Shown: in pieces, positions 1,466 to 18,499 of the stretch
Layout: every line of letters begins with the position of its first letter
Numbering within the stretch: the stretch's first letter is position 1
Assembly: GCF_023256435.1 (NCBI RefSeq)
Contig: NZ_JAGDXM010000012.1
Coordinates: 1-33,711 of the forward strand
DNA from: Thermoplasma sp.
GTDB taxonomy: Archaea > Thermoplasmatota > Thermoplasmata > Thermoplasmatales > Thermoplasmataceae
Reading direction: 5' to 3'
DNA: 33,711 nt
The notes under the pieces: model-generated
Database searches by the model: none
Told to the model about the DNA's origin: nothing
The model's input: the letters and a program-made list of their open reading frames with translations, nothing else
Translations under genes and position numbers: made by a program

Positions 1466-3523
1466 TCAGAATGTAAGGCTAGTTCTTTCTGCTTTCAGTG
1501 CTTCGGTAACGTTCATCGGGTTTCCTTTAGCTATTTCTATCTTGGATCCCGCCTTTACGAAAACTGCCACTTCATCCAAATCTTTTCTGACCTTTATCCA
1601 TCTTCTGCCTTTTACTCGTTTTCCGCTATCAAAGAAGGCCCACATGCCTCTAGGTAAATAAACATACCTCTCCTCACCCTCATGCGTTATTGGACACACA
1701 AGCAATTTGTTACCAAGGATAAACTCGTCATCTATATCAAATACTGCTGGATCTTCAGGATAGTCGAACACAAGTGGTCTGACAAACGGAATTGATTCTT
1801 CTAAACATTCCCGAGCTGACTCTATAATATACGGCATCAGATTATAGCGCAATTTGACTATTTTTCTGAAAATTTCGACACTTCTCGTACCATAATACCA
1901 AGGCTCCCTCGGGGTGGTTCCATGTATCTTGAAATGAGAAAAAAGGGCTCCAAGCGCCACCCAGCGCAAATAGAGATCTTCATCAGGCTTTCCAGCGAAA
2001 CCACCAGTGTCAAAGGCATTGAAATATACTCCGCTCATAGAAGCAGACAGAGCAGCTCTGAGGGCAGTTCTCATACCTTCCCATGTTGAACTCGAATCTC
2101 CTCCCCACTGAACCGGACATGTCTGTGACAATAGCGATCCAGATCTCCCCCAGACAATCCCCCGACCTGTACCACTTTTCACTCCTGTATAGGCCGAAAT
2201 TTGATAGAGATCCCCAACTTTGTTCCTCAGAACGAAACCCATATGATTATTATCGTCAACCGCTTCTGGTGGGACAGTTTCCCCGAAGTCAGTCATAACG
2301 GCGTCTGCTTTAGATCGCTTCATCAAATCGGCGATGAGATTTGAATAGAGATCAAAGCATTCTTTCCTAGTAAAATCGAACATTCCCCTATCCGGTTTAT
2401 TCGGATTTTTATCCTGATTAGGAACTAAAGCTACTTTTCCGCTGGCATCTTGGAAAAGACATTTTTCTGCAGTTTTATAAAAACGATCGTTCAGAGCAAC
2501 ATATGGATTAACCCAGAGACAGAGCCTCTTTCCCTCAGACCTCAGGTAAGTTCCCAGTTCATCATCGCTATTGAATCTGCTTCTGTCCCATCTGAAATTA
2601 CAGGCCTGAGTTACACCTGCAATGTAATTATCAAGCCACTGAGGATCCATGCTGATAACATCCATCGGTATATCTTCATTCTTGAATTTCTGGACAATAT
2701 CTTTTACTTCATTTGTATCACGATATCCTATTCCTGCCCATCTGCTAATCCAAAGCCCAAACGACCATTCCGGAGGCATTTCTGGTTTTCCGAACATATC
2801 AGAAAGGGTTTTTGTGAAATCCTTTGGTCTACCAATTACTATATAAAATGAAAAAGCCTTTGAAGGTATAGTTATATTAACGAGACCGTGCATTTTGGTT
2901 CCGAAGTCAAATTCTATTGGGAGATATTCGGGGAAAATAATCCCTATGCCAGATGCGGTTATGAAGACGGGCCTTGATTTGTAAACCTCATATGAATTCA
3001 GAGCATAATTATCAAATGGAAACGTGATAACGCTTGTTCCCCATTTGTTGAATCTGTTAAATGTTTCTCCAACTCCGTATATACCGTAATCAGTTGATAA
3101 TCTGAATGAAACTGTAGTGACATCGCCGGAATTATCAGGATTTAACATCTCAAAAAGTTCGCTTCCTATATTTAAAAAGCCTATAGAGTCCTGATTTGAG
3201 AAGGGAGACATTAATGTTTCCTCCCCCCTCTTTATTGTCACATTGAACCGATCACCGGCATCAGGCAGTATGAATTTGTATCCCAGGATTTTTCTCACCA
3301 AAGCTGGTTCCCTGTGAGGAACAATAAGATCCTTGTCTATACTTTCTGGATTGAATTCTATCTTCAGACCTCCTGAACCGATTTCCTTAACAATAACCGT
3401 ATTTTCAGAAAACTTGAATATTGTATTTCTATCTGATATCAGTTTTTCCTTTATCTGGCCTATACCCGTCGGATTTTTGTTCATTAATATTTCTGAGATG
3501 TTGAAATCTCTAAGATCACGCAT
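1466..3523 (-). CDS. GH31 glycoside hydrolase, alpha-xylosidase/alpha-glucosidase
   Basis: This is a 685-residue GH31 retaining alpha-glycosidase without a signal peptide, so it probably acts in the cytoplasm on imported oligosaccharides. The nucleophile is predicted as D412 in MTDFGE and the acid/base as D476 in WGGD. Their spacing and the DFGE context (E. coli YicI: KTDFGE) resemble the YicI/XylS alpha-xylosidase group more than alpha-glucosidases, which usually show D-x-N-E at the nucleophile. An N-terminal beta domain (about 1-240), the (beta/alpha)8 barrel (about 250-590) and a C-terminal beta domain are apparent. Start: ATG at 3523, with TATA TTTTTTAAC about 25 nt upstream. It is divergent from the ABC ATPase gene across 89 bp, so the two are probably co-regulated. 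Substrate by motif only: alpha-xylosides likely, alpha-glucosides possible. Confidence 0.9.
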   Translation of the reverse strand: MRDLRDFNISEILMNKNPTGIGQIKEKLISDRNTIFKFSENTVIVKEIGSGGLKIEFNPESIDKDLIVPHREPALVRKILGYKFILPDAGDRFNVTIKRGEETLMSPFSNQDSIGFLNIGSELFEMLNPDNSGDVTTVSFRLSTDYGIYGVGETFNRFNKWGTSVITFPFDNYALNSYEVYKSRPVFITASGIGIIFPEYLPIEFDFGTKMHGLVNITIPSKAFSFYIVIGRPKDFTKTLSDMFGKPEMPPEWSFGLWISRWAGIGYRDTNEVKDIVQKFKNEDIPMDVISMDPQWLDNYIAGVTQACNFRWDRSRFNSDDELGTYLRSEGKRLCLWVNPYVALNDRFYKTAEKCLFQDASGKVALVPNQDKNPNKPDRGMFDFTRKECFDLYSNLIADLMKRSKADAVMTDFGETVPPEAVDDNNHMGFVLRNKVGDLYQISAYTGVKSGTGRGIVWGRSGSLLSQTCPVQWGGDSSSTWEGMRTALRAALSASMSGVYFNAFDTGGFAGKPDEDLYLRWVALGALFSHFKIHGTTPREPWYYGTRSVEIFRKIVKLRYNLMPYIIESARECLEESIPFVRPLVFDYPEDPAVFDIDDEFILGNKLLVCPITHEGEERYVYLPRGMWAFFDSGKRVKGRRWIKVRKDLDEVAVFVKAGSKIEIAKGNPMNVTEALKAERTSLTF

Positions 3524-3612: not shown

Positions 3613-5454
3613 ATGAAATTTAATCGCTCACCAATAATAGAAGTGGAGAATCTTTCATTAGTATACGAGGGAGAAACTGGCAATACAGTTGCAATAGATA
3701 ACATTTCTTTTTCTATATATATAGGATCTATACACGCCATAGTAGGAGAATCCGGATCTGGTAAGTCAACTCTCGCAAATGCACTCATCGGTTACATCAA
3801 ATATCCAATGAAGAGGCTTTCTGGCCTCATAAAATTTAATGGAAAAGATATCTTTGAGATGGATGATGAGCAGCTCACCAAAATAAGAATGAAAGAAATC
3901 TCTTATGTTCCACAGGCAGCTATGAACTCGTTAAATCCAGTCATAACAATCAGGCAGGAAATGCATGATATAATATCGGCGCACGCGGAAATAGATAAGG
4001 CCACCGAAGAAAATATGATGAGGGAAGCGATTAACCTCGTAAACTTACCAGAGTACGTTCTTGAAGCTTATCCACATCAGCTAAGCGGAGGAATGAGGCA
4101 GCGCGTTATGATTGCCATAGCCTCAGTCTTAAAACCATCGGTTATTATTCTGGATGAACCTACTACCGGACTGGACGTTATAGTCCAGAAAGACATCCTG
4201 GATGTTATTAAGAAAATAAATGAAAAAACAGGAACCACCATAGTACTGATCACCCATGACCTTCCTGTTGCGTTCTATACCTCTAATAGATGTTCAATTA
4301 TTTATTCAGGAAAGATCGTTGAGCAAGGAGATACCACAGACATCATCAATAAAAGATATCACCCATATACGAACATGCTCATATCGGCTATTCCCTCGGC
4401 TAAATCCAAAGAGTCCAAACTAAATATAATACCTGGTGAAACGGAGACCAGGAAGGAATTGGATGAAAGATGCCATTTTGTGAATAGATGCCCATATGCA
4501 GTGGAGGTGTGCAGAACCACACCTCTTAGACCCATTGATTTCGACTCGGATCATTCCGTACTCTGCTTGAAGTATGATGATAGCTATTCCGATCTTTTCA
4601 GCCAAGGATCTTCTTCGGATAAGATTTACATTGGTTCTAAACGACTCAATATAGTTTCAAGACTCAGAAATGATACTAAACATACAATAGAGCTTAAAGA
4701 TGTGCAAAAAGATTATATTGTAGGCCGGGGGAACAAAAAAAGAATAATAAACGCAGTCAGGGGCATAGATTTAAAAATAGAAAATGGGATGGGGATAGCC
4801 ATAGTTGGATCCTCCGGCAGCGGAAAGACGACCATAGGCAAGATTATGTTGTATGACGAAACTATGACTTCAGGCAAATACCTCTTCGATGGTAGGGATG
4901 TAACTTCGCCTACCAAAAAGAATGTGGCGTTTATGAGGAAGGCTGTTCAGATGGTCTTCCAGGATCCCTTCTCCTCCCTCAGTCCATTGCATAAGATAGG
5001 ATATCAAATAGCCAGACCGCTATTGATAAATGGCGTTAGCAAACGAGAAACCATTGATGAAGACGTCATGGAAATTCTTTCACTGGTCGGATTGAGACCA
5101 GCTGAAAATTTTGTGAATAAATATCCCCATGAGCTATCTGGAGGCCAGCGGCAGAGGATATGTTTCGCCAAGGCCATATCAGTTGCACCCAAATTCCTAG
5201 TTGCAGATGAACCTGTGTCCATGCTGGATGCTTCTGTAAGGGCTGAGATTCTTAACCTGATGAACGATCTTAAGAATGAGCTAAATTTAGGCTTGATATA
5301 TATAACACATGATCTATCGACCGTCAGATATGTGGCTGAGGAGGTCTATGTAATGCATCAGGGAAGATTCGTGGAACACGGCACATGGGAAGATATAATA
5401 CAGACTCCTTCAGAGGAATACACTAAAAAACTTTTAGAATCAATAATTTGGTGA
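3613..5454 (+). CDS. Fused double ATPase of Opp/Dpp-type ABC importer
   Basis: This 613-residue protein is an OppD-like and an OppF-like ATPase in one chain. It would drive import through the two permeases encoded next to it. Domain 1: Walker A GESGSGKST (45-53), signature LSGG (157-160), Walker B ILDEP (179-183), switch His H215. It is followed by the oligopeptide-transporter extension with cysteines C287, C293, C300 and C318. Domain 2: Walker A GSSGSGKTT (399-407), LSGGQ (508-512), ADEP (531-534), H566. The four-Cys pattern in this extension binds a [4Fe-4S] cluster in a characterised dipeptide-importer ATPase, so a cluster here is plausible. The ATPases are usually separate genes. The gene converges on the permease operon with 3 bp between stop codons. 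In archaea this transporter family often carries oligosaccharides, and the neighbouring glycosidase favours that over peptides. Confidence 0.93.
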   Translation: MKFNRSPIIEVENLSLVYEGETGNTVAIDNISFSIYIGSIHAIVGESGSGKSTLANALIGYIKYPMKRLSGLIKFNGKDIFEMDDEQLTKIRMKEISYVPQAAMNSLNPVITIRQEMHDIISAHAEIDKATEENMMREAINLVNLPEYVLEAYPHQLSGGMRQRVMIAIASVLKPSVIILDEPTTGLDVIVQKDILDVIKKINEKTGTTIVLITHDLPVAFYTSNRCSIIYSGKIVEQGDTTDIINKRYHPYTNMLISAIPSAKSKESKLNIIPGETETRKELDERCHFVNRCPYAVEVCRTTPLRPIDFDSDHSVLCLKYDDSYSDLFSQGSSSDKIYIGSKRLNIVSRLRNDTKHTIELKDVQKDYIVGRGNKKRIINAVRGIDLKIENGMGIAIVGSSGSGKTTIGKIMLYDETMTSGKYLFDGRDVTSPTKKNVAFMRKAVQMVFQDPFSSLSPLHKIGYQIARPLLINGVSKRETIDEDVMEILSLVGLRPAENFVNKYPHELSGGQRQRICFAKAISVAPKFLVADEPVSMLDASVRAEILNLMNDLKNELNLGLIYITHDLSTVRYVAEEVYVMHQGRFVEHGTWEDIIQTPSEEYTKKLLESIIW

Positions 5455-5457
5455 TCC

Positions 5458-6366
5458 TCACATTTCTTCGCCCGCTTTGAGGATTTTATTTGAATTTTTC
5501 TTCTGGCTCCCTTTGGCCTTTTTGAAAACCCTAAGTGACGGGTTAGCGATTACATCCAATCCCAGACTTATCAGACCAAACCCAACACCGAGGAACGCTA
5601 TTGTCAGACCTGGAGGAATGAACCACCACCATTCTCCCAGAAGTATCGCAGAGTAGCTATTGGCGTAATATAGGATAGAACCTAGTGAGATTATCGTCTC
5701 GTTGCCGAGGCCAAGGAATAGCAGACTTGTCTCCAGAATGATCGAGAAAACAACCAAGTTGGTGAAAATGTAGCCAACATATGAGAGTAGTGAAGGTAAG
5801 ATCTCTCTGAATATTATATTCAAATGAGACTCACCTGTATGTTTGATGAATGTTATATAATCACGACTCGATAATGAAAGTACCTGTGATCTTATGGTAC
5901 GAGCTCCAGTAGCCCAACCTGTTATCGTTATCACGAGTATAAGGGCAAGATTGCCGAGATTCGCATGCGATGCCTGTAGATCAGAGGAGATGACGATTGC
6001 GAGCGGCAATCCAGGTATCAGCAGAAACACGTTGATGAAAAAGGTGAGTATCTCATTCTTTAGACCTCTTGCATATCCGCTTAGCAACCCAACAAATAGA
6101 GCGACTACCATCCCAAGAAGAGCTCCTGCTAAGCCTATTTCAATCGTTGGTAATATCCCGACAAGGTACTGAGACCATATGTCGTTTCCAAAAAAATTCG
6201 TACCCAATATATGAAGCCTGGAAGGTGGCAGATTTGATGCGAATGAAGCCATAGGATTATATGGATGATAGAAGAAACCGATCACGCCCAGCAGGGTTAT
6301 GGCAGATACGATCAATGTTCCAGAGAATATATATTTATTGTTCCAAAAAATCCTCAGTCCGCTCAT
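5458..6366 (-). CDS. ABC importer permease, OppC/DppC type
   Basis: This 302-residue integral membrane permease (binding-protein-dependent transport family) has about six hydrophobic segments. A cytoplasmic coupling (EAA-type) loop is seen around SRDYITFIKHTGES, followed by an Ile/Leu-rich segment before LPSL. It pairs with the upstream OppB-type permease. Their genes overlap by 4 bp (ATGA), so translation is probably coupled. The N-terminus is short and basic, followed by the first helix at about 15-33. It is the last gene of the binding protein-permease-permease operon. The substrate cannot be read from the sequence; the oligosaccharide assignment rests on context. Confidence 0.92.
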   Translation of the reverse strand: MSGLRIFWNNKYIFSGTLIVSAITLLGVIGFFYHPYNPMASFASNLPPSRLHILGTNFFGNDIWSQYLVGILPTIEIGLAGALLGMVVALFVGLLSGYARGLKNEILTFFINVFLLIPGLPLAIVISSDLQASHANLGNLALILVITITGWATGARTIRSQVLSLSSRDYITFIKHTGESHLNIIFREILPSLLSYVGYIFTNLVVFSIILETSLLFLGLGNETIISLGSILYYANSYSAILLGEWWWFIPPGLTIAFLGVGFGLISLGLDVIANPSLRVFKKAKGSQKKNSNKILKAGEEM

Positions 6367-7352
6367 GTTCTATCATCTCTTATTCTGGGATCGAGTCTAT
6401 AATAAAGAATATCCATTATGAAATTGGCTATCAGTACGGCTATAATTATAAGAAGAAAAGCCGTCTCAAGCGTGGGGAAATCCTCATTTATCACTGCATT
6501 GTATATATCAAAGCCTAGCCCAGGATAGGAAAAAACCATTTCCACCAATATGCCTCCTCCAATGATGTTACCGAATGCGAGCGCAAATGCTGTCAGGTTT
6601 GGAAGAATTGCATTCATCTTGGAGTATTTCATTATCTTGCTTCTTGGCAATCCAGCAATCTCTGCATATTTCAGATAATCTTCATTTATTGTCACTATTG
6701 CATTATTTCTCATTCCAAGATACCATGAACCATACGATGCTATGACAAGAGTCAAAAGTGGCAGTATAATGTGCGTGATGGAAGAGGCGAAGAATTCCGG
6801 GGTATAGAGTGGGTATATATTATTATAGGCCCCAGCCTCTGGAAATATATGAAACTGAATCGCAAAGAAAAATAGAAACAACAGAGCTAGCCAGAAATAT
6901 GGAAATGAGTAAAGAAAAAGAGAAACTGCAGACAAAACAGAATCTTCCTTGCTGCCTCTTCTGAATGCGGATCTCAACCCGAGATAATTCCCGAGATAAA
7001 AGCTGATTATGAGGGCCGCACCAAATAGCAATATTGTCCAACCGATACTCTGATCGATCACGTTCAATACCGGGGTGGGATAGTACTGTATGGATACGCC
7101 AAATTTTCCCCGAAATACGTTCTCCACAAATTTAAGAAATTCCACAGGGATAGGCCCGCTTGTGTAACCTAGTGATGATTTAAGAGATGCTATCTGTTGA
7201 GGGGTAAGCGTTGTGGTCTGTGAAAGGGAACCTATGACCGCGTCGACAGGGTTGCCAGGCATAAGATGAGGTATCAAAAAGTCAAGGAAAAGAACGAACC
7301 AAAATGAGAAGAAATAGAATATAATTTTCCTTATTATATATTTAGGTATCAT
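6363..7352 (-). CDS. ABC importer permease, OppB/DppB type
   Basis: This 329-residue membrane permease has the family N-terminus: a first helix followed by PHLMPGNPVDAVIG, an OppB/DppB hallmark. A periplasm-facing stretch (about 45-95) precedes the remaining five helices. The coupling loop lies around NEDYLKYAEIAGLPRSKI, and the C-terminus ends in the typical DPRIRD. The start is 1 nt after the stop codon of the binding-protein gene, and the end overlaps the second permease by 4 bp, which makes a compact three-gene operon. It forms the heterodimeric channel with the OppC-type partner. Confidence 0.93.
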   Translation of the reverse strand: MIPKYIIRKIIFYFFSFWFVLFLDFLIPHLMPGNPVDAVIGSLSQTTTLTPQQIASLKSSLGYTSGPIPVEFLKFVENVFRGKFGVSIQYYPTPVLNVIDQSIGWTILLFGAALIISFYLGNYLGLRSAFRRGSKEDSVLSAVSLFLYSFPYFWLALLFLFFFAIQFHIFPEAGAYNNIYPLYTPEFFASSITHIILPLLTLVIASYGSWYLGMRNNAIVTINEDYLKYAEIAGLPRSKIMKYSKMNAILPNLTAFALAFGNIIGGGILVEMVFSYPGLGFDIYNAVINEDFPTLETAFLLIIIAVLIANFIMDILYYRLDPRIRDDRT

Positions 7353-7353
7353 C

Positions 7354-9168
7354 TTACGCCTTTTTTCTTCTGTTAACCAAGAACGCAGCAGCAGCTACAA
7401 TAACTATAATCACAGCAATTATGCCTATTTCAAGCGGAGAGATCGGCGACGTGGAGGTGGTACTTGTTGTACTGTAGACAGTGGTCAATGGTACAGCTAT
7501 TGAAACCAGCCCGAAACTGTTGGCATACAGCGCATCCTTAAAGGAAGTCTCATTTATTCCAGCAAATCCGTAGGTGTTGAATTCGTTTTGTGAAATTGTC
7601 ATGGCGATGGGGACTGATGGTGTGAGGTTGTAGAGTATAGAAAGAGCTTTCGCTATGTAATATCTTTGCATTGTTATGTTTGGCTGGGACGCCGCTTCCG
7701 TGATGTATTGTTCAAAGGTGGTGTTATTGAACCTGGAATAGTCTCCGTTAGCTGCTACTCCAATTGGCTTGTACCAGTAGTATGAGAACGACGTATTAAG
7801 CGCCCCTATAGGGTTAATGGAACTCGGTAGATAGGCAAGGCCTGCACTGTAGTTTCCATCATATACATTAGCATAGAATATGGCGCCACTTGGGGTGTAT
7901 ACATTTGTCTTAATGCCAAAATTGTTGAGTTCCTGCTCCATCGTATTAAGATTGGCAACAACATTGGACGCCGCTCCGTTACCTGAAAGGGTTAACGAAA
8001 CCACAGTTCCATTTGACGCTGTCCAGTAACCGTTTTTGAGTGTAAATCCTCCCTTTTCCATCAATTCCGTTGCATATGTAAGATTGTAATTATAGTATGT
8101 TCCATTTGGATGCGAGGCTAAGAATCCCGGTTCAAAGTAATTGCTGAGGGCTGGCATTATATAGTTTCCAGCTGGTGGCTGAAGAGATTCGTTGGAAAGA
8201 ACCTGCCTGTTGACCGCATATGCTATGGCGGCACGTACGTCAGGGTTGCTCAGAGGCCACTTCAGATTATTCAGGTATAACATCAGGAAACCGGAGGGCG
8301 GGGTAAAATAGAAGTGGTAAGGACTCTGAGTAGCCCATGTGGGTGCATCAGCATCAAACGCGCCAGACAACCAGTTTATGTTACCGCTTGCAAGAGCGTT
8401 AGCCTCAGCCGTGACTGTAGGATATGAAGGAATTATTATTTCGCTGAGATGCTTGCCCGTATAGTTGTAGTATGGATTCCATTTCAAAACAAATTCGCTC
8501 GAAGTAATTGAAGTGGCCATAAATGGGCCACTGCCAATTGGGTTCGTTAGAGTTATTCCTCCAGGATTGCTAACTCCCTTCCACTGTGGTGGGTATATTA
8601 TAGGCTGGGACATTATATTATAGAGGTCTGTGTACTGCGTGTTCTTCAGATAAAACGATATCATGTTAGGTCCGGTCATAGCGACCCCCTTCACAAAAGA
8701 ACTAAGACCGTGCGTATCAATAACACTATTGGAAAGTATGTAATTGAACGTAAACAGAACATCGCTTGCATTCAGTGGCTGACCATTGCTATATCTTAAA
8801 CCAGTTTTTATAGTAAAGGTCAAATTGGTCAAATTTGCGCTGTAATGGTATGAAGATGCGACGGCCGGTACGGGCGATTCTCCATTCATTAGATACATTA
8901 GAGGCTGATATATAAGAGACAGAGCTGTGGTTTCATATGGGGCTGAAGCTATCCCGCTAAATGGATTAAGGTCTGGGGTGAATGATCCATAGCTATCTAC
9001 CGCAAGATAGAACGCCTGGGAAGTGCTGGTATTGTTCGTGGAGGAGCTTGGAGTGAAAATCTTAGCGCTACTGTTCTGCGATACTGTGGCTGTTGGTACA
9101 GCGAATAAAAGAATTACCAGCAAAACCATTATCACTGTGGAAGATCGAAATGCTTTTGTTTTAAGCAT
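7354..9168 (-). CDS. Extracellular solute-binding protein (family 5), membrane-anchored
   Basis: This 604-residue family 5 substrate-binding protein is the receptor of the ABC importer. An N-terminal export signal (about residues 10-30, IMVLLVILLFAVP) is followed by a Ser/Thr/Asn linker. The binding core covers about 50-560, with family features such as an LNPF/ALSLIYQPL segment and GLRYSNGQPLNASDV. The C-terminus is a Ser/Thr-rich stalk (STTSTTSTS) and a helix (about 580-598) ending in RRKKA, so the protein is anchored by its tail with the binding domain outside. There is no lipobox cysteine. Many N-x-S/T sites suggest surface glycosylation. It is the first gene of the operon; ATG at 9168 sits about 25 nt after a TATA box. 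Family 5 proteins bind peptides or oligosaccharides. Confidence 0.93.
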   Translation of the reverse strand: MLKTKAFRSSTVIMVLLVILLFAVPTATVSQNSSAKIFTPSSSTNNTSTSQAFYLAVDSYGSFTPDLNPFSGIASAPYETTALSLIYQPLMYLMNGESPVPAVASSYHYSANLTNLTFTIKTGLRYSNGQPLNASDVLFTFNYILSNSVIDTHGLSSFVKGVAMTGPNMISFYLKNTQYTDLYNIMSQPIIYPPQWKGVSNPGGITLTNPIGSGPFMATSITSSEFVLKWNPYYNYTGKHLSEIIIPSYPTVTAEANALASGNINWLSGAFDADAPTWATQSPYHFYFTPPSGFLMLYLNNLKWPLSNPDVRAAIAYAVNRQVLSNESLQPPAGNYIMPALSNYFEPGFLASHPNGTYYNYNLTYATELMEKGGFTLKNGYWTASNGTVVSLTLSGNGAASNVVANLNTMEQELNNFGIKTNVYTPSGAIFYANVYDGNYSAGLAYLPSSINPIGALNTSFSYYWYKPIGVAANGDYSRFNNTTFEQYITEAASQPNITMQRYYIAKALSILYNLTPSVPIAMTISQNEFNTYGFAGINETSFKDALYANSFGLVSIAVPLTTVYSTTSTTSTSPISPLEIGIIAVIIVIVAAAAFLVNRRKKA

Positions 9169-9510: not shown

Positions 9511-10458
9511 CTATCCGATTATGTATGAGGGCTCCTTTCCATATATTAGCAGATTTATCAGATTTTCAGTACAGATCCTATCGATCTCATCGAACGCATC
9601 CTCTGCGAATGCAGCAATATGCGGGGTACATACCACACGATCATTAAGGATGAATTCCATATTGGTGGGCGGCTCAATATCGTAGACATCGGTGGCAACA
9701 GAACTGATGTGACCTGATCTTATATGCTTCAGAAGGGCCTTATAATCAATTATTTCTCCCCTTGACACATTGATCAGGTAGCTCCCTTCCTTCATCATCG
9801 AAAGAATCCTGTCGTCAACAAGCTTTCGTGTCTCAGCTGTCAACGGTGCGTTTATGCTCACAACATCCGAATTGGAGAAAAGATCCTCGAGAGTCACCTT
9901 CATAAACTGATCGTCGTTGACATATGGATCATAATAGATGACTTTGACTCCGATCTTTTGCAGAAGCTTTGCAAGCGCATGTCCTGTGTTTCCAAAGCCC
10001 AATATTCCCACGGTCAGCTCTTCCAGCGATTTTCCCAGGAAATCGGCTCTTTTCCATGAACCTGATTTAAGGGAAATGCAGGATCTCGTTATATTTCTTG
10101 TTGCATCTAGGATAAGCCCAAGGGCAAATTCCGCAACTGCCCTGTGTTCAATATCTATTGGTGTGTTCGTGACTATTATATTTTTTTTACTGCAGTATTC
10201 CAAGTCGATGTTGTCTACTCCTATGCCCCTCCTTGCTATGATCTTCAGGTTTCTAGCCTTTTTTAATACGTTTTCGGTGAATGGATCCAATCCAGCGATT
10301 ATGCCATCATAATCAGATATAATCTTTGAGAGTTCGTCCTCCGTATACCATCTCTCCATCTTATTTGTATCAACTATGAAGTGCTTCCTGAGAGTGTTTA
10401 GATATTTATCAGTGAACCATGGTGCCGTGATCAATATTCTGGCTCTATGTTCTTCCAC
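9511..10458 (-). CDS. D-2-hydroxyacid dehydrogenase (SerA/glyoxylate reductase family)
   Basis: This 315-residue NAD(P)-dependent oxidoreductase interconverts a 2-keto acid and a D-2-hydroxy acid, or glyoxylate and glycolate, in the cytoplasm. The Rossmann motif is GFGNTG (154-159). The catalytic set is R233 (VSRG), E262 (DIEPP) and H280 (TPHIA). It lacks the ACT domain of long phosphoglycerate dehydrogenases. It is the last gene of the four-gene sugar-acid operon, overlapping the aldolase gene by 14 bp. In context it could handle glycolate/glyoxylate or hydroxypyruvate formed after aldol cleavage; that role is inferred. D173 at the end of beta-2 (YYDPY) would prefer NAD if it is the usual acidic residue. 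Confidence 0.9.
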   Translation of the reverse strand: MEEHRARILITAPWFTDKYLNTLRKHFIVDTNKMERWYTEDELSKIISDYDGIIAGLDPFTENVLKKARNLKIIARRGIGVDNIDLEYCSKKNIIVTNTPIDIEHRAVAEFALGLILDATRNITRSCISLKSGSWKRADFLGKSLEELTVGILGFGNTGHALAKLLQKIGVKVIYYDPYVNDDQFMKVTLEDLFSNSDVVSINAPLTAETRKLVDDRILSMMKEGSYLINVSRGEIIDYKALLKHIRSGHISSVATDVYDIEPPTNMEFILNDRVVCTPHIAAFAEDAFDEIDRICTENLINLLIYGKEPSYIIG

Positions 10459-11311
10459 TTTTCAGTACCTCCATAACCTCCCTTGATAAGGCCTCCTCAG
10501 CCTTCTGATCGAGAGGATAGATCGGTGGCCTGGGCTTGCCTGGATCATATTTACCTATTATCTTTACCAATGAATAATTCGCTGCCCACTGGCCATATTT
10601 GCGCGCTATCATGGCAAGCCTAGTCAGAATCCGCTGATCAATGACGCCCCTATCATTCTGATAGTTCTCAAATAGTGATCTTGCTATCTTAGGTGCATAA
10701 TTTCCAGATCCCGGAATTGCACCATCCATCCCCATCCTTAGCGACGCGAGTACCAGCACATCTGGTCCGCAGTAGACCTTGAAATCATTACCGAATTCCC
10801 ACTTGAAGTTGAGAAGATGATCCAGATCCGGTACAGTATCTTTTATTCCAACTATATTTCCGCCGCTTTTGTTTATTTTAGTTACGAGATCTGGTTTTAT
10901 ATCGTAGTTAGTGGTCAGCGGGAAATTATAAACTAAAGTTGGGTATATCTCAGAAATTTCCTTGAAGAACCTGATGTACCATTCCTCCGGTATCCTAGGA
11001 TAATAATAAGGGGGAAGGGAGGCTATGTATTTTACCTCATTTCTCTTCCCGAGTCTGGCAAGTTCCCTGCTTTCCTCCAGATCAAGGGATCCGACCTGGA
11101 ATATGATCTTGTCCTTTAGATGATGAAGATCATTCAAGATCTTTGCCTTTTCCTCCATTCTCAACGATGGGCCCAGTCCAGTACTCCCTGATACAAGCAG
11201 GTAATCAACACCGTTCTTAATCAAATATTCAGCATGAGTGAGAAGTCTCTCAGTATCTATTGTGTTGTTATCGGTAAACGGCGTTATCATCGGTACTATA
11301 AGATCACTCAT
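10445..11311 (-). CDS. kdgA: 2-keto-3-deoxy-(phospho)gluconate-type aldolase
   Basis: This 288-residue class I aldolase of the DHDPS/NAL superfamily cleaves 2-keto-3-deoxy sugar acids to pyruvate and an aldehyde. The Schiff-base Lys is K157 (GIKDT) and the catalytic Tyr is Y128 (VYNFP). GSTGLGPSL (42-50) and the tail PRPPIYPL match the Sulfolobus KDG aldolase pattern closely. That enzyme is promiscuous for C5 and C6 keto-deoxy acids. The gene overlaps the MBL gene upstream by 8 bp and the dehydrogenase gene downstream by 14 bp. It could also serve the organism's general non-phosphorylating Entner-Doudoroff route; the operon suggests a dedicated sugar. True dihydrodipicolinate synthase is unlikely given the KDGA-specific motifs. 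Confidence 0.88.
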   Translation of the reverse strand: MSDLIVPMITPFTDNNTIDTERLLTHAEYLIKNGVDYLLVSGSTGLGPSLRMEEKAKILNDLHHLKDKIIFQVGSLDLEESRELARLGKRNEVKYIASLPPYYYPRIPEEWYIRFFKEISEIYPTLVYNFPLTTNYDIKPDLVTKINKSGGNIVGIKDTVPDLDHLLNFKWEFGNDFKVYCGPDVLVLASLRMGMDGAIPGSGNYAPKIARSLFENYQNDRGVIDQRILTRLAMIARKYGQWAANYSLVKIIGKYDPGKPRPPIYPLDQKAEEALSREVMEVLKSGRT

Positions 11312-12041
11312 GAAATACCACCGGCTTTTCAGCTGGCTTCATATAAATATCCATTACCGTGTTTGTTTCGTCCCTGTTTCTAAGTATTATATCAACGGCA
11401 TCTCTTTCAAGGTAGCCATTTGCACAGAACGGCGGATCATGCCCAGGGTATATAACATCCGGCTTCAGATCCTTTATTTTAGCTATGCTCTTCTTGGCCT
11501 GTTCCAGATTGTAGAAAATCAGATCCGGCACTCCTCGATCATAGGCTCTCAGATTTGGTACCGCATCACCTGCAATTACAATTTTCTTTGATCCGTCTAT
11601 AACTAAGACAGATATATGCCCGGGCGTGTGGCCTGGAGTTGTTATGATCTGTACATTTTCTGACAGCCTATGATCCTCCTTTATGAGTGTCAGATCCATG
11701 CCTCTTAGGATCTCTTTGAATTTATCTGAGATACCGTCTTTGACACCGCTTAGCGTTCCGTTCTTCAATTCTTCTTCTCCAAGAATTATCTTCGCGGAAT
11801 CGAAGAGATCCACGTTAAGGCAGTGATCCCAGTTCAGATGGGTCAGCACAACCACATCTATATCTGAGGGCGAAAGACCTGATACCTTAAGGTTTGCTAT
11901 GAGGTTATCCCGGTTTCCGAAATGCCCCACATCTACCAGGATTCTGTCATCACCATCTTCTATTAAGGTGGAGGCCGAAGCCCCCATTGTACCGTATGAG
12001 CTCCTTATGCCGGCACCCTTCAGAATCCTGGCGATCTTCAT
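11304..12041 (-). CDS. MBL-fold hydrolase, putative sugar lactonase
   Basis: This 245-residue metallo-beta-lactamase-fold protein is of the AHL-lactonase-like type. Between dehydrogenase and dehydratase functions in a sugar-acid pathway, a lactonase opening the aldonolactone is the likely role; this is inference. Metal-ligand motifs: H68-L-N70-W-D72-H73, H138 in PGHTPGH, D159 in AGDA and H201 in PGHDPP. The usual H-x-H-x-D-H has Asn (codon AAC) in place of the second His, which may alter metal 1 binding. The gene overlaps the dehydratase gene by 4 bp and the aldolase gene by 8 bp. Other MBL hydrolase functions, such as another ester or lactone substrate, remain possible. Confidence 0.8.
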
Positions 12042-13180
12042 TTGATATCACCATGGTACTTGTATTCGTTGCTGAAGTATTCAAGATGCATCTTCTTGTA
12101 TGGATACTTTGTCAGCGCTTCTTCATTTATCTCTATTCCAAGGCCTGGTTTATCACGCGGATATATATAGCCGTCTCTGACATCGAAATATTCCTTTATC
12201 AGATCGTGCCTGACGGTTTCAGCATCAAGCCAGAATTCCAGAATCAATGCATTTGGCATGGTGACAAGCGCATTTAGGCTCGCTGCAGTAGCAATTGGGC
12301 CGTTCGGATTATGTGGTGCAACAGTGACGTAATTTACGTTGGCCATTGCGCCGACCTCAACAAGAGGCATGATTCCACCCATATGACAGACATCCGGCTG
12401 TATTATATCGACGGCCCTCTGTGAAAGGAGCTCCCAGAATCTGTTTCTTGAAATTATCCTCTCACCGGCTGCTATTGGAACGCCAGAGGCTTTCCTGACC
12501 TCGCTCATTGACACTATGTCTTCTTCTGGGACGGGCTCTTCCAACCAGAATGGATCGTATCTCTCTATCTCCTTTGCTATCTTTATGGCCGTCCTGGTGT
12601 TGAATCTACCATGCGCCTCTATCATGAGATCGATATCGCTTCCGACCGCATCTCTGATCGCCCCTATCCTCTGCTTGGCCATATCCAGATCGGCCCTCGT
12701 TATGTTTGGCCCGGCACCGCCAAACGGATCGAATTTCAGTGCTTTATATCCTTTTTCAACAGTTTTCACAGCCGCTGATGCAAATTCCTCGGGTTTCGCC
12801 CCACCTGAAATGAAGCCGTTGGCATACACCTTTACCCTGTTTACCGCTTTTCCACCAAGCAGTCTATAAACGGGCTGCCTAACGGTCTTTCCGACAGCAT
12901 CCCATAGGGCCTGTTCTATGGCGCTCTGTGCGGTGGAGAGTATGGGGCCGTTCCTCCAGAAGAAATTTCTTAGAAAGAAATTGGTGATCTCGTTTATTTC
13001 AATGTCTCTGTTGATGAGGAATGGCTTCAAATCATTTACCGCAGCCTCAATGGTCTTTTCAAAGTCTCCGAGCGTACCTTCACCGTATCCCTTTATGCCC
13101 TCGTCCGTAGTGACTTCAACTATTACAAAATTCCTCCAGACTGCTGCTGCAAAATAGGTCTTTATCTCCTTTATCTTCAT
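12038..13180 (-). CDS. Sugar-acid dehydratase, enolase superfamily (galactonate dehydratase-like)
   Basis: The protein has 380 residues from ATG 13180 (MKIKEIK). An upstream in-frame start at 13315 would overlap the divergent gene and add 45 unlike residues, so it is rejected. The TATA about 25 nt upstream fits 13180 and leaderless translation. It dehydrates an aldonate to its 2-keto-3-deoxy acid. Predicted Mg ligands are E188 (IEAHGRF), E214 (LEEP) and E240 (AGER), with H190 and H290 (APHNP) as acid/base candidates. The spacing equals that of E. coli DgoD, where the first ligand is Asp rather than Glu. K147 and K149 (KALKFDP) close the barrel side. It is the first gene of the minus operon. 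The exact substrate (galactonate, xylonate, arabinonate, rhamnonate or other) is undetermined. Confidence 0.88.
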
Positions 13181-13191
13181 AGAATAAGAAT

Positions 13192-13260
13192 TTAACACTA
13201 GTATTAATTTTTTGTGAGAGGATTTTTGATAAAATATTAAATGAGGAAAGCATTTATATC
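13192..13260. promoter_or_regulatory. Divergent promoters of the two sugar-acid operons
   Basis: The minus-strand TATA-like CAAAAAATTAATAC (about 13201-13214) serves the dehydratase gene. The plus-strand TTTATAT (13252-13258) lies about 30 nt before the ATG at 13287. TTAACACTAGTATTAA (13192-13207) is a 16-bp palindrome with one mismatched pair, overlapping the dehydratase TATA and initiation region. A protein bound there would block transcription of the catabolic operon, so a repressor site is plausible. Confidence 0.5.
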
Positions 13261-13286
13261 TTTCTCTGATTAACATAGCGGAGGAG

Positions 13287-14729
13287 ATGGATTTGAAAGG
13301 CGCTATTATAGGCAAAGAGATATTTTCTGATGCAAAGAGTGAAGTCTACAACCCGTCCACGGGAGAAATACTGGATTATGTGCCCGTGCTGAGCAGAGAA
13401 CAGGTGAAAGAGGCGATAGACCTTGCTTACGAAACATATCAAAAATATTCACAGTACACTGGAAGTCAGAGGAAGAAATTGCTCATCCAAGCGGCTGAGC
13501 TGATCAGGCAGAATAAGGATGAGCTAGCAAAGACCATGTCCCTTGAGATGGGTAGGCCAATAAAGAGCTCCAGAGCGGAAATAGATAGAACTGCAGCAAT
13601 ATTTGAGGGTAGCGCTTGGGAATTGCAGAACGTTCTCAGAGGGGAGTTCATTCCTCTGGATGTATATGAAACACCCGCTGGGAACGAGAATAGGATAGCC
13701 ATTACTGCAAGAGAGCCTATGGGCGTTGTTGCTGCGATAACTCCATTCAACTTCCCAGGAGCCAGCTTTGCCCACAAGGTGGCAACCGCGCTTGCGGTGG
13801 GCAATACGGTTGTTCATAAGCCCACCAAGAACGCTCCGCTTACTCAGATAGAACTCGCAAAGCTGCTCCTGAAGGCGGGATTCCCTGAGGGTTCCATAAA
13901 TGTGGTGACCGGGAATTCCAGCGAGATTGGGGATGAATTCAGCTCCAACAAAAAAGTAAGGCTGATAACGTTTACGGGATCACCGGGAGTCGGCCTGGAA
14001 TTAGCCTCCAGGGCAACAAAGAATGGTATAAAGTCCATCATGGAGCTCGGAGGCAGCGATGCACAGATAGTGCTGGATGATGCGGATATAGAGTTGGCTG
14101 TCGAAAAGGCAGTCTTTGGACGTTATGATTACTCTGGGCAGTTTTGCAATGCGACAAAACGTGTGCTTGTATCAAGCAGTATCGCTAAGGAATTCGAAAA
14201 CCGCGTTGTAGAGAGACTGAAGAATTTGAAGATAGGCGATGCGCTGAACGAGGAGACAGATATGGGCCCATTGATATCCAAGGAAGCAGTAAGGAATATG
14301 GAGTCTTTCGTGAAAGATGCGGTTTCAAAAGGATCTCAGGTCATTTATCGCGGGAATGCTCCCAATAGGGGATTCTTTTATCCTCCGACACTCATAGAGG
14401 TGAAAGATCCAAATGCACAGGTCATGAGCGATGAGGTGTTCGGCCCAGTTTTGCCCATAAAGATATTTGAAACAGATGAAGAGGCCGTGGCCATTACAAA
14501 TTCATCACGCTATGGACTCGATGCATCGGTGTTTTCGAGGAATTTTTCAAGGGCGTACAAGGTTGCCAGGAAACTGAATGTCGGAACGGTGATCATAAAC
14601 GATACAACGAGGCTGAGGTGGGATTACCTTCCGTTTGGAGGCCCAAAGGAAAGCGGCATAGGTAGGGAATCCATCAGGGATACTATGATGGAGATGACCG
14701 AGGAAAAGGTCATAGCATACCGGCTATAG
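13287..14729 (+). CDS. Aldehyde dehydrogenase (lactaldehyde/glycolaldehyde/GAPN-like)
   Basis: This 480-residue NAD(P)-dependent aldehyde dehydrogenase of the main ALDH superfamily oxidises an aldehyde to a carboxylate. Active-site residues: N155 in PFNFP, K178 in HKPTKN, E253 in ELGG and C287 in [10 protein letters not shown]. In this operon its likely substrate is the aldehyde released by the KDG-type aldolase (glyceraldehyde, glycolaldehyde or L-lactaldehyde); inferred. Start: ATG 13287 fits leaderless transcription from the TATA at 13252. A GGAGG (13280-13284) lies only 2 nt before it, but 8 nt before TTG 13293, so a two-residue shorter form is conceivable. It is followed by the SDR gene after 14 nt. 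Confidence 0.92.
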
Positions 14730-14743
14730 ATGGGGTGAACAGC

Positions 14744-15523
14744 ATGATCGAACTGAATGGAAAAAACGTGATCATAACCGGAGGCACCCATGGCATTGGA
14801 GAAACAACAGCAGTTCTTTTCAGCAAACTTGGTGCCAGCGTCTGGATAGTTGGAAGAAATGAATCGAAGGGTAGGGAAATAGAATCAAAAAGCCCAGATG
14901 GACGTATAAAATTTTTGAAATGCGATCTTTCAGTCAGGTCTCAGGTTGAGGATCTGGGTAGATGGATAGAGAGCAGTGATGTTGTATTCGATGTACTGAT
15001 CAACAACGCGTCTAGGAATTCAAGGTTCAATGTCCTGAATATACCTATGAAGGAATGGGACGAAATGATCGAGCTCAATCTCTCCTCGGTTGTTGTGCTG
15101 TCCAAAAACGTTGCAAGCAAAATGATAAAGAATAATAAAAAAGGCAAGATAATAAATATTGGTGCAATACAATCATTCTATCCGCTTGATTCCTCGCTAG
15201 CCTACTCTGCAGTAAAGGGTGCACTTAGATCGATGACTAAGAGCATGGCAGTAGATCTCGGCAGATATGGGATTCTTGTGACGCTTGTGATGCCCGGGCC
15301 AATATACGCCAAGGCAGACGAGGAGGATGTACCTGAGGATCTGGATAAACGCGCCGCAACTCTCATTGGCAGAATGGGAAGAAAAATAGAGGTGGCAAAA
15401 CTGCTTGCATTCCTCTCTTCCGACGACAACACGTTTATGACGGGAAACGAGATAATCATAGATGGTGGAAGGTCAATATCCAGAAAGCCTGATCCGGAAG
15501 AGATAGAGAAAAATATCATATGA
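14744..15523 (+). CDS. SDR-family sugar/alcohol dehydrogenase
   Basis: This is a 259-residue classical short-chain dehydrogenase. Cofactor motif TGGTHGIG (12-19), NNA at 88-90, and YSAVK giving Y154 and K158. The position 13 residues before the Tyr, normally the catalytic Ser (NISS), is Ala (N-I-G-A); a Ser occurs three residues later (S144). D/E after beta-2 is replaced by GRN, suggesting NADP. Start: ATG 14744 is preceded by GGTGA at 5 nt spacing. A GTG at 14735 in frame is itself part of that ribosome-binding site, so it is rejected. In operon with the aldehyde dehydrogenase it is a candidate sugar 1-dehydrogenase feeding the divergent lactonase/dehydratase/aldolase operon. Gluconate-5-dehydrogenase-like or ketoreductase activity is an alternative. 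Confidence 0.85.
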
Positions 15524-15713: not shown

Positions 15714-15732
15714 AATTATGTTATTTTATAAC

Positions 15733-17394
15733 ATGAACCCTACTAACGTATGGTATAGATGGTGGCCTATAGGGCTTCCATACAGTCTTGAATATCCAAG
15801 AGCATCACTTTACAAGATATTTGAGCACCGCGCAGAGGAACATTCTGATAGAGATTTCATAGTATTCTACGATAGGAGACTTAGATATGCTGACGTCCTG
15901 AAGGAGGTAAAATCGCTGTCAAGCACTCTTATGGATCTCGGAATACAGAAGGGTGATAGGGTAGGCATCTATCTTCAGAATTCGCCCAATTTCGCCATAT
16001 CTCTGCTAGCTATTTCAAGATCCGGAGGAATAGCAGTATTCATGAACCCAATGCTCAAGAGAGACGAGATAAGGAATATACTTGAAGATTCAAAGCCGAA
16101 GATCATAATAACCTCTGGCGAACTCCTTAACAATCTGTCGGAAGCAAGGGAAATGGGCATAAAGATAATAGCCGGAAATCTCAATTATTATCTGCCTGAG
16201 AAAAGTTCGGTGAATGTCCCAGATTTCATGAAACAGACCTATGATCTTGCGAATGCCATAAGATGGGATGAGGCTGTTTCGACCAGAAACATACATGAAG
16301 AGGTCGCCACCGGGCCGGATGATCCGCTGATAATAGCCTATACCTCCGGTACAACTGGTATACCTAAGGGATGCCTCCACACAAACAGATCAGTCATAGC
16401 AAATGCAATGGCTTCATCTTACTGGAGGAACACAACACCATCCACAGTAGAGCTGGCGGTGGCGCCTTTCTTCCATGTTACCGGCCTGTCGTTCTCGCTG
16501 CTTTCTCCAATATATTCAGGCAGCGAACTGGTCATAATGACAAGATGGAATAAATTCACATTTCTTGATATGATAGAGAAGTACCATGTTACGCATGTTA
16601 TAGTTATCTCCACGATGATAGCCGATCTCCTCACCGTGGAAGGCCTTGAAAAACGTGATTTCAGTTCTCTTAGGTTCATAGGCGGAGGTGGCACACCAAT
16701 TCCGAAAGCTCTTGCCGAGAAATTCGAGAGGATAGTCGGACTGCCATTTGTGGAGGGTTATGGAATGACGGAAGCCATGGGGCAGAGCCACGTCAATCCT
16801 CCAGGAAGGAGGAAGCTCCAGTGCATTGGAGTGCCGCAGTTTGGCTATGATGCGAGGATAATTGATGTTGAGACAGGTCAGGACATAACCGGGAAAGGAA
16901 CTGGAGAGATCGTCATAAGCGGGCCATCGCTTTTCTCAGGATACTACAATAAACCTGATGAAACTGAGAAAGCAACGATAATACTTGACGGAAAGAAGTT
17001 TGTGAGAACTGGGGATATCGGCTATATGGACGATGAGGGTTATTTCTTCGTCGTGGACAGGCTGAAGAGGATGATAAACAGATCCGGATTCAAGGTCTGG
17101 CCCATGGAGGTGGACAGCCTCCTCTACAACCATCCGGCCGTGAAGGAGGCATGCGTTGTAGGGGTACCCGATGAGAGGGTGGGCGAAGAGGTCAAGGCCC
17201 TGGTCGTTCTGAAGCCAGATTACCGCGGGAAAGTCCGGCCGGAAGAGATAATTGAATGGTCCAAAAAACAGCTTGCCTCATACAAGTATCCAAGGATCGT
17301 GGAATTCGTGGACGAACTTCCCAAAACTCCATCAGGAAAGATAGATTGGAGATCAATTCAGGAGGCTGAGAAAAACAGAGTCAGAATGCCCTAG
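15733..17394 (+). CDS. Fatty acyl-CoA ligase (AMP-forming)
   Basis: This ANL-superfamily acyl-CoA synthetase activates a carboxylic acid with ATP and CoA through an acyl-adenylate. It has 553 residues from ATG 15733, chosen from the TATA spacing; ATG 15718 would add five. Motifs: P-loop YTSGTTGIPKG, A5 motif GYGMTEAMGQS, RTGDIGYMDDEGYF with the hinge region VVDRLKRMI, and the C-terminal catalytic Lys in TPSGKIDWR. It resembles medium- or long-chain fatty acyl-CoA ligases. Its 3' end overlaps the convergent acyl-CoA dehydrogenase gene by 14 bp. Together with that gene and the downstream hydratase and dehydrogenase it supplies beta-oxidation; the chain length is not readable. Confidence 0.9.
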   Translation: MNPTNVWYRWWPIGLPYSLEYPRASLYKIFEHRAEEHSDRDFIVFYDRRLRYADVLKEVKSLSSTLMDLGIQKGDRVGIYLQNSPNFAISLLAISRSGGIAVFMNPMLKRDEIRNILEDSKPKIIITSGELLNNLSEAREMGIKIIAGNLNYYLPEKSSVNVPDFMKQTYDLANAIRWDEAVSTRNIHEEVATGPDDPLIIAYTSGTTGIPKGCLHTNRSVIANAMASSYWRNTTPSTVELAVAPFFHVTGLSFSLLSPIYSGSELVIMTRWNKFTFLDMIEKYHVTHVIVISTMIADLLTVEGLEKRDFSSLRFIGGGGTPIPKALAEKFERIVGLPFVEGYGMTEAMGQSHVNPPGRRKLQCIGVPQFGYDARIIDVETGQDITGKGTGEIVISGPSLFSGYYNKPDETEKATIILDGKKFVRTGDIGYMDDEGYFFVVDRLKRMINRSGFKVWPMEVDSLLYNHPAVKEACVVGVPDERVGEEVKALVVLKPDYRGKVRPEEIIEWSKKQLASYKYPRIVEFVDELPKTPSGKIDWRSIQEAEKNRVRMP

Positions 17395-18499
17395 AAACCT
17401 TTTTTCCATATTTGCTGCGCAGAAATCTGTATATGACAAGCCGCTCTATTTCAGACGAGCCCTCCCATATCTCCATTATCTTTGCATCCCTGAAGAACTG
17501 TTCCATATCCGATTCCATACCATATGTTCCGGTCAGAAGTACGCCCAGTCTGGACGAATCGACCGCTACCTCGGAAGCAAACGCCTTTGCCTCGCTGGTG
17601 AGCACCGGATCAGTCCTGCCCGTATGAATGGAATTGACAGCCTCGTAGGTGAGCATCCTTGCGGATTCTACCCTCGCCGCAAGATCGGCGATTGCAAACT
17701 GATGCCTCTCCTCCATCTTATTTTCTGGATCGCTGTAGAAAGCCATCAGCCTCCTTATTATCCCCTCCGCTATTCCAACGGAAAGCGCCGCAACATATGT
17801 CCTGCTTACGTCAAAAAAATTCATGACGTAGTAGAAGCCCATTCCAGGTTTGCCTATCATATCGCTGGAATCCACATGGACGCCGTCAAGGGAGATGATA
17901 GTGGTATCTGTCCCACGCACACCAAGCTTTCCCTGGATCTTACTTATTTTGACCCCTGCAGCATGCGGATTCAACACAAACAGCGAATGAGACTGCTGCG
18001 GCTTTACGCCGTTCTCTGTTCTCGCAAGTACCAGAAGGAAATCCGCAATGTCACCGTTTGTGATGAACATCTTCGATCCGCTGATCACGTAATGATCGCC
18101 TTCCCTGACAGCGGTCGTCTTAAGATTAGCCAGATCGCTTCCTCCGCCGGGCTCTGTGAGCGCCAGCCCCATCTTCTTCTTTCCATGGATAACCGGTTCA
18201 TACAGATCTGATATCTGTTTCTGGGTTCCGTAGAACCTCAGTATTTCATTGCCGAAAAAGGGAACAGCCATCGATATTCCAAGATTTGGATTTACAGAAG
18301 ACATTTCTTCAAGCGCTATTATGAATTTCCATATGTCTTCCGGATGCAGTATATCTGATGCAACTGCTTTCCGGAAAAGTTCCTCTGGAAACTCCTCCAT
18401 CTCATCCGATCTCTTTGAGTATACTGGAAATTCCCTCAATGAGAAATTCCTTACGCGATCCCTGAATCTCTCAATATCCTCAGAAAGAGTGAATTCCAT
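17381..18499 (-). CDS. Acyl-CoA dehydrogenase
   Basis: The protein has 372 residues from ATG 18499. GAGGAGG at 18506-18512 gives ideal spacing for this start, while the upstream in-frame start at 18514 overlaps that site. This FAD enzyme makes the first oxidation of beta-oxidation, acyl-CoA to trans-2-enoyl-CoA, passing electrons to ETF (not in the window). Motifs: GLALTEPGGGSDLANL, MFITNGDIADFLLV, and the C-terminal catalytic Glu E346 in EIWEGSSEIERL, at the MCAD E376 position. It lies 128 bp after the 3-hydroxyacyl-CoA dehydrogenase gene on the same strand, probably co-transcribed. Isovaleryl/butyryl versus medium-chain specificity is open. Confidence 0.92.
   Translation of the reverse strand: MEFTLSEDIERFRDRVRNFSLREFPVYSKRSDEMEEFPEELFRKAVASDILHPEDIWKFIIALEEMSSVNPNLGISMAVPFFGNEILRFYGTQKQISDLYEPVIHGKKKMGLALTEPGGGSDLANLKTTAVREGDHYVISGSKMFITNGDIADFLLVLARTENGVKPQQSHSLFVLNPHAAGVKISKIQGKLGVRGTDTTIISLDGVHVDSSDMIGKPGMGFYYVMNFFDVSRTYVAALSVGIAEGIIRRLMAFYSDPENKMEERHQFAIADLAARVESARMLTYEAVNSIHTGRTDPVLTSEAKAFASEVAVDSSRLGVLLTGTYGMESDMEQFFRDAKIMEIWEGSSEIERLVIYRFLRSKYGKKVSRAF

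Follow-up and report, generated by a model that had tools for sequence, protein, structure and literature searches.

A candidate archaeal sulfosugar-degradation cluster of the Entner-Doudoroff type in Thermoplasma sp.

Which sugar is broken down by a compact six-gene cluster at positions 9511-15523 of a Thermoplasma sp. contig (NZ_JAGDXM010000012.1, assembly GCF_023256435.1)? We analysed the whole stretch of 33,711 nucleotides that contains it, here called the window. A preliminary description had read the six adjacent genes as a dedicated non-phosphorylating route in two divergent operons, serving a pentose or a 6-deoxyhexose. The genes, their families and the dedicated character of the route were borne out. 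The substrate was not: the cluster's partner in relatives is SuyAB, the sulfolactate sulfo-lyase, which has no role in the breakdown of either kind of sugar, and the cluster's short-chain dehydrogenase/reductase (SDR) groups with SDRs of sulfofucolytic loci. We consider it likely, from comparison of the genes and their neighbourhoods, that the cluster encodes an archaeal pathway of the Entner-Doudoroff (ED) type for degrading a sulfosugar.

A compact cluster in two divergent operons

The source genome (1.55 Mb, 98% complete) has all six open reading frames where they were first placed, in two closely packed, divergent operons, with four genes on the minus strand and two on the plus strand:

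9511..10458, minus strand: D-2-hydroxyacid dehydrogenase (HADH; PF02826/PF00389), candidate (S)-sulfolactate dehydrogenase with an SlcC-like role
10445..11311, minus strand: aldolase of the DHDPS family and 2-keto-3-deoxygluconate aldolase (KDGA) type (PF00701), candidate 2-keto-3-deoxy-sulfo-sugar-acid aldolase
11304..12041, minus strand: metallo-beta-lactamase (MBL)-fold hydrolase (PF00753), candidate sulfo-aldonolactonase
12038..13180, minus strand: enolase-superfamily, DgoD-like dehydratase (PF02746/PF13378), candidate sulfogalactonate/sulfogluconate dehydratase
13181..13286: divergent intergenic region, 106 bp; divergence retained in relatives G036, G020, G066, G021 and G049
13287..14729, plus strand: aldehyde dehydrogenase (ALDH; PF00171), candidate sulfolactaldehyde dehydrogenase
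14735..15523, plus strand: SDR (PF13561/PF00106), candidate sulfosugar 1-dehydrogenase with an SfcH-like role

The minus-strand genes overlap by 14 bp (HADH/KDGA), 8 bp (KDGA/MBL) and 4 bp (MBL/dehydratase), as originally reported, and 5 bp separate ALDH from SDR. The dehydratase start is best placed at ATG 13180, the position used in all orthologues, which leaves the 106-bp region between the operons. Comparison of this divergent promoter with the regions upstream of SuyAB for a common operator gave AT-rich words only, and a scan for sigma-70 promoters and terminators, with models not suited to archaea, gave a chance-level result.

Families were placed by Pfam (2-Hacid_dh, DHDPS, Lactamase_B, MR_MLE, Aldedh and adh_short), and function models were NCBIfam equivalogs with curated cut-offs. 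The cut-offs for gluconate/galactonate, arabinonate and rhamnonate dehydratase, for archaeal 2-keto-3-deoxygluconate aldolase and for lactaldehyde and L-rhamnose dehydrogenase were all missed; the families thus tell the chemistry, not the sugar. The models nearest to the MBL protein are acyl-homoserine-lactone and pyridoxo-lactonases, and the best relatives of the aldolase in the PDB are Sulfolobus KDGA. Gene content supports a complete non-phosphorylating oxidative route, which would run through oxidation, lactone hydrolysis, dehydration, aldol cleavage and aldehyde oxidation.

Among 121 related genomes, several of them metagenome-assembled genomes (MAGs), nine carry the dehydratase (E <= 1e-90) and nine the MBL protein (E <= 1e-30), the two sets overlapping largely; neither was found in any of the four congeners of the source genome. 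Conservation in related genomes, suggested earlier as a check, was found: relatives hold a syntenic cluster at 46-86% identity, with the dehydratase most conserved (66-86%), so the arrangement is not due to chance. Gene order is retained in G020, G036, G066, G021, G049 and the fragment G047, and partially in G019 and G025. A contig scan placed the dehydratase, at 59-63% identity, in Sulfolobales archaeon HS-7 (a complete genome), the Thaumarchaeota MAG AcS4-109 and Thermocladium modestius; viral contigs gave one distant DgoD-like match. Two copies show assembly error or decay: the Thermocladium dehydratase (L129:10001-11140) is spread over several frames, and the G066 ALDH (L025:10687-12000) is short of ~46 residues in the region of its active site.

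A second KDGA, 44% identical to the cluster aldolase, is present in the source genome and has homologues in all four congeners. The cluster is thus an extra, dedicated pathway, separate from housekeeping ED. This bears on the idea of a second, ordinary De Ley-Doudoroff pathway for glucose or galactose, fed by alpha-glucosides through a glycoside hydrolase of family 31 (GH31) and an ATP-binding cassette (ABC) transporter. It would suit the KDGA-type aldolase, the GH31 and ABC neighbours and the DgoD-like dehydratase, which scores near the cut-off of the galactonate dehydratase model PRK14017 (297.8 bits against 311). However, the housekeeping KDGA and further dehydratase paralogues in the source genome make a second copy unneeded, and the usual glycerate-kinase ending has no aldehyde and 2-hydroxyacid dehydrogenase. 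Since it also leaves the linkage to SuyAB unexplained, we regard this pathway as very improbable.

Linkage to sulfolactate sulfo-lyase

In five relatives (G019, G020, G021, G049 and G066) SuyAB genes lie no more than ~6 kb from the cluster. A pair encoding a SAF and a GD_AH protein begins 193 bp past the SDR gene in G066; the large subunit stands just past ALDH in G019, with a GntR gene between, and ~5 kb from SDR in G020. In G021 and G049 a UxuA-family and a GntR gene come, in that order, after the KDGA operon, and then the genes for a SAF protein of 93 aa and a GD_AH protein of 383 aa. In G045, which has no cluster dehydratase, the SDR adjoins an enolase-family gene and SuyAB. HS-7 belongs to another phylum; there the dehydratase and SDR genes form an operon with the gene of a GH170-like protein, and the start of SuyA is 85 bp away. 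The GH170-like protein (L128:8896-9993), related to MupG of the 6-phospho-N-acetylmuramidase family, is a candidate glycosidase for a C6-anionic sugar.

Dehydratase and SuyB co-occur more often than expected: six of the nine dehydratase carriers have SuyB, against 11 of all 121 genomes (0.8 expected; Fisher p = 9e-6, a guide only, as the genomes are related). This count weighs less than the adjacency itself, which recurs in several genera and two phyla and is seen in single-contig genomes. The TauE family was not informative, as it has four copies in the source genome but occurs in 14 of 14 control genomes.

The identity of the lyase rests on a tree and on gene context. The archaeal large subunit is 53-60% identical to reference SuyB, against 36-39% to a UxaA paralogue that one of these archaea also carries. 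Archaeal and bacterial SuyB form one clade (100/100), which a branch of 0.85 sets apart from UxaA-type proteins. Against plasmid records it gave 13 matches at 55-60% identity, the next being at 43% and below. The top matches lie in sulfonate loci of Cupriavidus pinatubonensis, Paracoccus seriniphilus, Methylobacterium, Rhodococcus and Sinorhizobium mexicanum. In C. pinatubonensis the gene order is hpsNO...suyAB, part of the cluster named hpsRNOUPsuyAB (PMC11382572). SlcC/ComC-type pairs stand beside the match in three of these (P. seriniphilus, Methylobacterium and Rhodococcus), and P. seriniphilus and Methylobacterium have sulfate exporters there too. By these comparisons the archaeal pair, split in the source genome into a 94-aa SAF and a 386-aa GD_AH subunit, are SuyA and SuyB.

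A second line of evidence comes from the SDR. Its C-terminal motif, GGRxISRKxDP over 11 residues, recurs in the SDR from the sulfofucose locus of S. mexicanum; among the archaeal SDRs, those of G036 and G025 have one substitution each. It was not found in eight control SDRs, of which one, from Haloarcula, has a partial GGRLVSRM. In a tree the sulfo-locus SDRs of archaea and bacteria fall together, with the Haloarcula protein, at 81/95. In the sulfoquinovose dehydrogenase of Pseudomonas putida, the C-terminal tail of the neighbouring subunit reaches a sulfonate-binding Arg (PMC12133307), and the Arg-Lys of the archaeal tail may likewise have a sulfonate role.

These two observations bear directly on the substrates first proposed, a pentose (degraded through glycolaldehyde to glycolate and glyoxylate) or a 6-deoxyhexose (through lactaldehyde to lactate), with SuyAB nearby by coincidence. 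The enzyme families suit any aldose, and Thermoplasmatales use such routes. The best model for the ALDH is lactaldehyde dehydrogenase (473 against a cut-off of 650), the SDR matches the L-rhamnose dehydrogenase model Rham_dhyd_Thplmales weakly (124 against 450), and the GH31 is related to the alpha-xylosidase YicI. Against such a route stand the SuyAB linkage, repeated across two archaeal phyla, and the motif shared with sulfofucose-locus SDRs. We therefore think a pentose or 6-deoxyhexose route improbable. For the HADH, at first explained by the pentose route, a role as sulfolactate dehydrogenase is a better explanation than one as a glyoxylate or lactate enzyme, but its sequence by itself does not settle the matter.

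A proposed sulfosugar pathway and its substrate

From the observed gene content, synteny, SuyAB orthology and SDR motif we infer both the substrate and each of the reactions that follow. In the first and weakest step, an Opp-type ABC transporter would import a sulfo-oligosaccharide from which the GH31 would free the sugar. The SDR would oxidise this 6-deoxy-6-sulfo-hexose to a lactone, the MBL-fold protein would open the lactone, and the DgoD-like enolase would dehydrate the resulting sulfo-aldonate. The KDGA-type aldolase would then cleave the 2-keto-3-deoxy acid to pyruvate and (S)-sulfolactaldehyde, the ALDH would oxidise the latter to (S)-sulfolactate, the HADH would interconvert (S)-sulfolactate and sulfopyruvate, and SuyAB would release sulfite from (R)-sulfolactate to give a second pyruvate.

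A stereochemical switch would be needed before SuyAB. The published route yields (S)-sulfolactate, and SuyAB takes the R form, which is reached via SlcC and ComC (PMC12421959). Because the source genome yielded no member of the ComC family, we propose that a racemase may serve instead. A mandelate-racemase-family gene lies at G000:C14:5435-6553 (L053) of the source genome and also in G001, G002, G020, G021, G045, G048, G049 and G066; all nine carriers have SuyB (p = 5e-12), and in most the gene adjoins SuyAB or lies within a few kb. The protein retains K-x-H, D-x-N, E, E, D and an opposite His, with all metal ligands, and we propose it as a candidate sulfolactate racemase replacing ComC.

The transporter and the GH31, whose association with the cluster was overlooked at first, lie upstream of it:

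1466..3523, minus strand: GH31 alpha-glycosidase, YicI-like, candidate sulfoglycosidase, not of the YihQ sulfoquinovosidase type
3613..5454, plus strand: fused ATPases of an Opp-type ABC transporter; homologues found flanking the cluster in G019, G025, AcS4-109 and Thermocladium
5458..6366, minus strand: Opp-type ABC permease, OppC-like; synteny in relatives
6363..7352, minus strand: Opp-type ABC permease, OppB-like (PF00528); synteny in relatives
7354..9168, minus strand: solute-binding protein of family 5 (SBP_bac_5, PF00496)

They probably belong to the sulfosugar system, because both stand beside the cluster in G019 and G025, where the SBP_bac_5 orthologue adjoins it (64% and 40% identity, respectively); a GH31 is also near the cluster in G020. 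The cluster GH31s conserve the catalytic Asp405 and Asp472 (numbering of E. coli YihQ). Gln288, Arg301, Trp304 and Tyr508 of YihQ, which we take to be the residues that define a sulfoquinovosidase, are not conserved in them, and on this comparison we ruled out a sulfoquinovosidase. The GH31 could be a new type of sulfofucosidase, or else an enzyme for ordinary glycan trimming.

Sulfofucose appears to be the most likely substrate, with sulfoquinovose next. 6-C-Sulfofucose is described in the N-glycan of T. acidophilum (Vinogradov 2012, as cited in PMC12421959 and PMC12448462), and sulfoquinovose (6-deoxy-6-sulfoglucose) occurs in Sulfolobus N-glycans and in sulfolipid (PMC12890257), which makes sulfonated archaeal glycans a plausible food in these communities. 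The same pathway acting on sulfoquinovose, from plant or algal sulfolipid or Sulfolobus N-glycans, would fit the presence of the core in HS-7, a member of the Sulfolobales, and the match of the dehydratase to the bifunctional gluconate/galactonate dehydratase model. The GH31 residues speak against it, as does the dehydratase family: the bacterial sulfogluconate dehydratase belongs to PF00920, whereas the sulfogalactonate dehydratase is of the enolase family, as here (PMC12421959). We judge sulfoquinovose rather unlikely in place of sulfofucose. A fuller account, in which the ED enzymes were assembled independently of the bacterial route, Thermoplasmatales recycle 6-C-sulfofucose from their neighbours' cell-surface glycans, the GH31 is a sulfofucosidase and the mandelate-racemase-family protein is a sulfolactate racemase replacing SlcC and ComC, can be offered only tentatively.

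Residues in the other enzymes give a mixed picture. Six of the seven cluster aldolases retain the Arg of YYYPR (Arg106 in the Sulfolobus enzyme), where the housekeeping Thermoplasma KDGAs have Gly. This Arg presumably binds the phosphate of 2-keto-3-deoxy-6-phosphogluconate in Sulfolobus KDGA, and we count a retained anion site as consistent with a sulfosugar. The metal motif of the MBL protein reads HxNxDH instead of HxHxDH in Thermocladium and in every cluster copy from Thermoplasmatales, and HxHxDH is retained in AcS4-109 and G035. The sulfonate pair of the ALDH is Arg171/Arg289 in RlGabD and His/Asn in B. megaterium SlaB (PMC10599462); the cluster ALDH has the His of SlaB at the first position.

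Several points weigh against a sulfosugar pathway, and the unconserved YihQ residues are among them. At the second position of the sulfonate pair the ALDH has Asp. Where the catalytic Ser would usually stand, 13 residues before the Tyr, the archaeal SDRs carry Ala; S. mexicanum SfcH has Ser at this position, and the Arthrobacter SDR described below has Thr. The HADH is of the same Pfam family as SlcC at 30-33% identity over 237-251 residues, which falls short of showing orthology. In the dehydratase tree the archaeal proteins form a clade separate from SfcF, which groups with DgoD; orthology to SfcF was thereby ruled out, Pfam family alone matching, and the dehydratase gives no direct evidence on the substrate. 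A UxuA-family gene occupies in G021 and G049 the position held elsewhere by HADH. SuyAB of the source genome lies on a different contig (G000:C14) from the cluster, and no SuyB match was found in G036, G047 or G025, of which the last two are incomplete. Finally, T. acidophilum (G001, of the same GTDB genus as the source genome, with an XPD helicase that matches TA0057, PDB 4a15, at all 620 residues) and four other genomes carry SuyAB without the cluster, which indicates that the lyase also serves other sources. The T. acidophilum locus (G001:C1:1439762-1440907, L057) has the SuyB-clade protein, a GntR gene and an enolase-family partner, but no ED cluster.

Other genes accompany the cluster. 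The UxuA (mannonate dehydratase) family gene occurs in the cluster of two genera (L026:6955-7932, L027:6824-7810 and L028:1419-2411). A GFO/IDH/MocA oxidoreductase adjoins the cluster in G020 and G036 (L024:13007-13966 and L023:5806-6771), with a paralogue at C13 of the source genome (49%). We rejected it as a GH188 sulfoquinovosidase: its match to 8qc2, which we take to be a GH188 enzyme, is weak and far behind glucose-fructose oxidoreductases. The AcS4-109 cluster holds a DUF4432 protein, possibly a mutarotase (L127:8921-9904), and the Thermocladium cluster a GH116-family protein (L129:4629-7073). In the window, positions 15718-22857 hold a fatty-acid/beta-oxidation block (acyl-CoA ligases, acyl-CoA dehydrogenase, 3-hydroxyacyl-CoA dehydrogenase and enoyl-CoA hydratase) that is not conserved with the cluster in relatives.

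Relation to known routes

An ED pathway for sulfofucose has been shown in Paracoccus wurundjeri, with the SDR SfcH, the lactonase SfcD, the galactonate-dehydratase-family dehydratase SfcF and the aldolase SfcE; its proposed ending leads from sulfolactaldehyde to sulfolactate and through SlcC/ComC to SuyAB, with an ABC importer, and S. mexicanum is named as another carrier (PMC12421959, 2025). We found in S. mexicanum a locus of ~15 kb with SfcF-, SfcE-, SfcD- and SfcH-type genes, an aldose epimerase, an ABC transporter, SuyB, a sulfate exporter and SlcC. The archaeal system resembles this route in its reaction order, an enolase-superfamily galactonate-type dehydratase, a D-2-hydroxyacid dehydrogenase, an ABC importer, linkage to SuyAB and the SDR motif. 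It differs in its lactonase (MBL-fold PF00753 against SMP-30, PF08450), its aldolase (KDGA/DHDPS-type PF00701 against HpcH/HpaI, PF03328) and its dehydratase, an independent branch, as well as in having a GH31 and no ComC. We therefore file it as a variant, not a member, of the sulfofucolytic ED pathway, with a dehydratase recruited analogously.

A plasmid of Arthrobacter sp. YA7-1, pYA7-1a (L152, 4263-16877), carries what looks like a sulfofucolytic locus with another class of aldolase. It holds GFO/IDH/MocA, ABC, SDR, DgoD, DHDPS-family aldolase, SMP-30, semialdehyde dehydrogenase and TauE genes. Its DgoD is 59% identical to S. mexicanum SfcF, its SDR ends in GGRSLSRKTDQ, and its content suggests that a sulfofucolytic pathway can employ an aldolase of the DHDPS family.

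The sulfoquinovose ED pathway of P. putida SQ1 has the same steps and the same products, sulfolactaldehyde and pyruvate (PMC12421959, PMC12133307). Its dehydratase is of the IlvD/EDD type (PF00920), unlike the enolase-type archaeal dehydratase. It uses an SMP-30 lactonase and an HpcH-type aldolase and ends in sulfolactate. The non-phosphorylative ED pathway of Sulfolobus and Thermoplasma has KDGA-type aldolase and enolase-type dehydratase families in common with the cluster; its housekeeping paralogues lie elsewhere and are widely kept, whereas the cluster, present in 9 of 121 genomes, is accessory and SuyAB-linked.

A 2026 review lists every characterised sulfoquinovose degradation pathway as bacterial and none in archaea (PMC12890257), and our literature search of open-licence papers found no characterised archaeal sulfosugar degradation. 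The chemistry proposed here is already known in bacteria; the archaeal version would use different lactonase, dehydratase and aldolase branches, with an added glycosidase. The comparison points to sulfo-ED chemistry having been built in the two domains out of different families for the dehydratase, lactonase and aldolase steps. The sulfofucose study found no sulfofucosidase candidate and left the sulfolactaldehyde dehydrogenase of Paracoccus open (PMC12421959); the archaeal cluster offers a candidate for each, the latter within the operon itself. Acidophilic archaea make sulfosugars, sulfofucose in Thermoplasma and sulfoquinovose in Sulfolobus, and the cluster would close the organosulfur loop.

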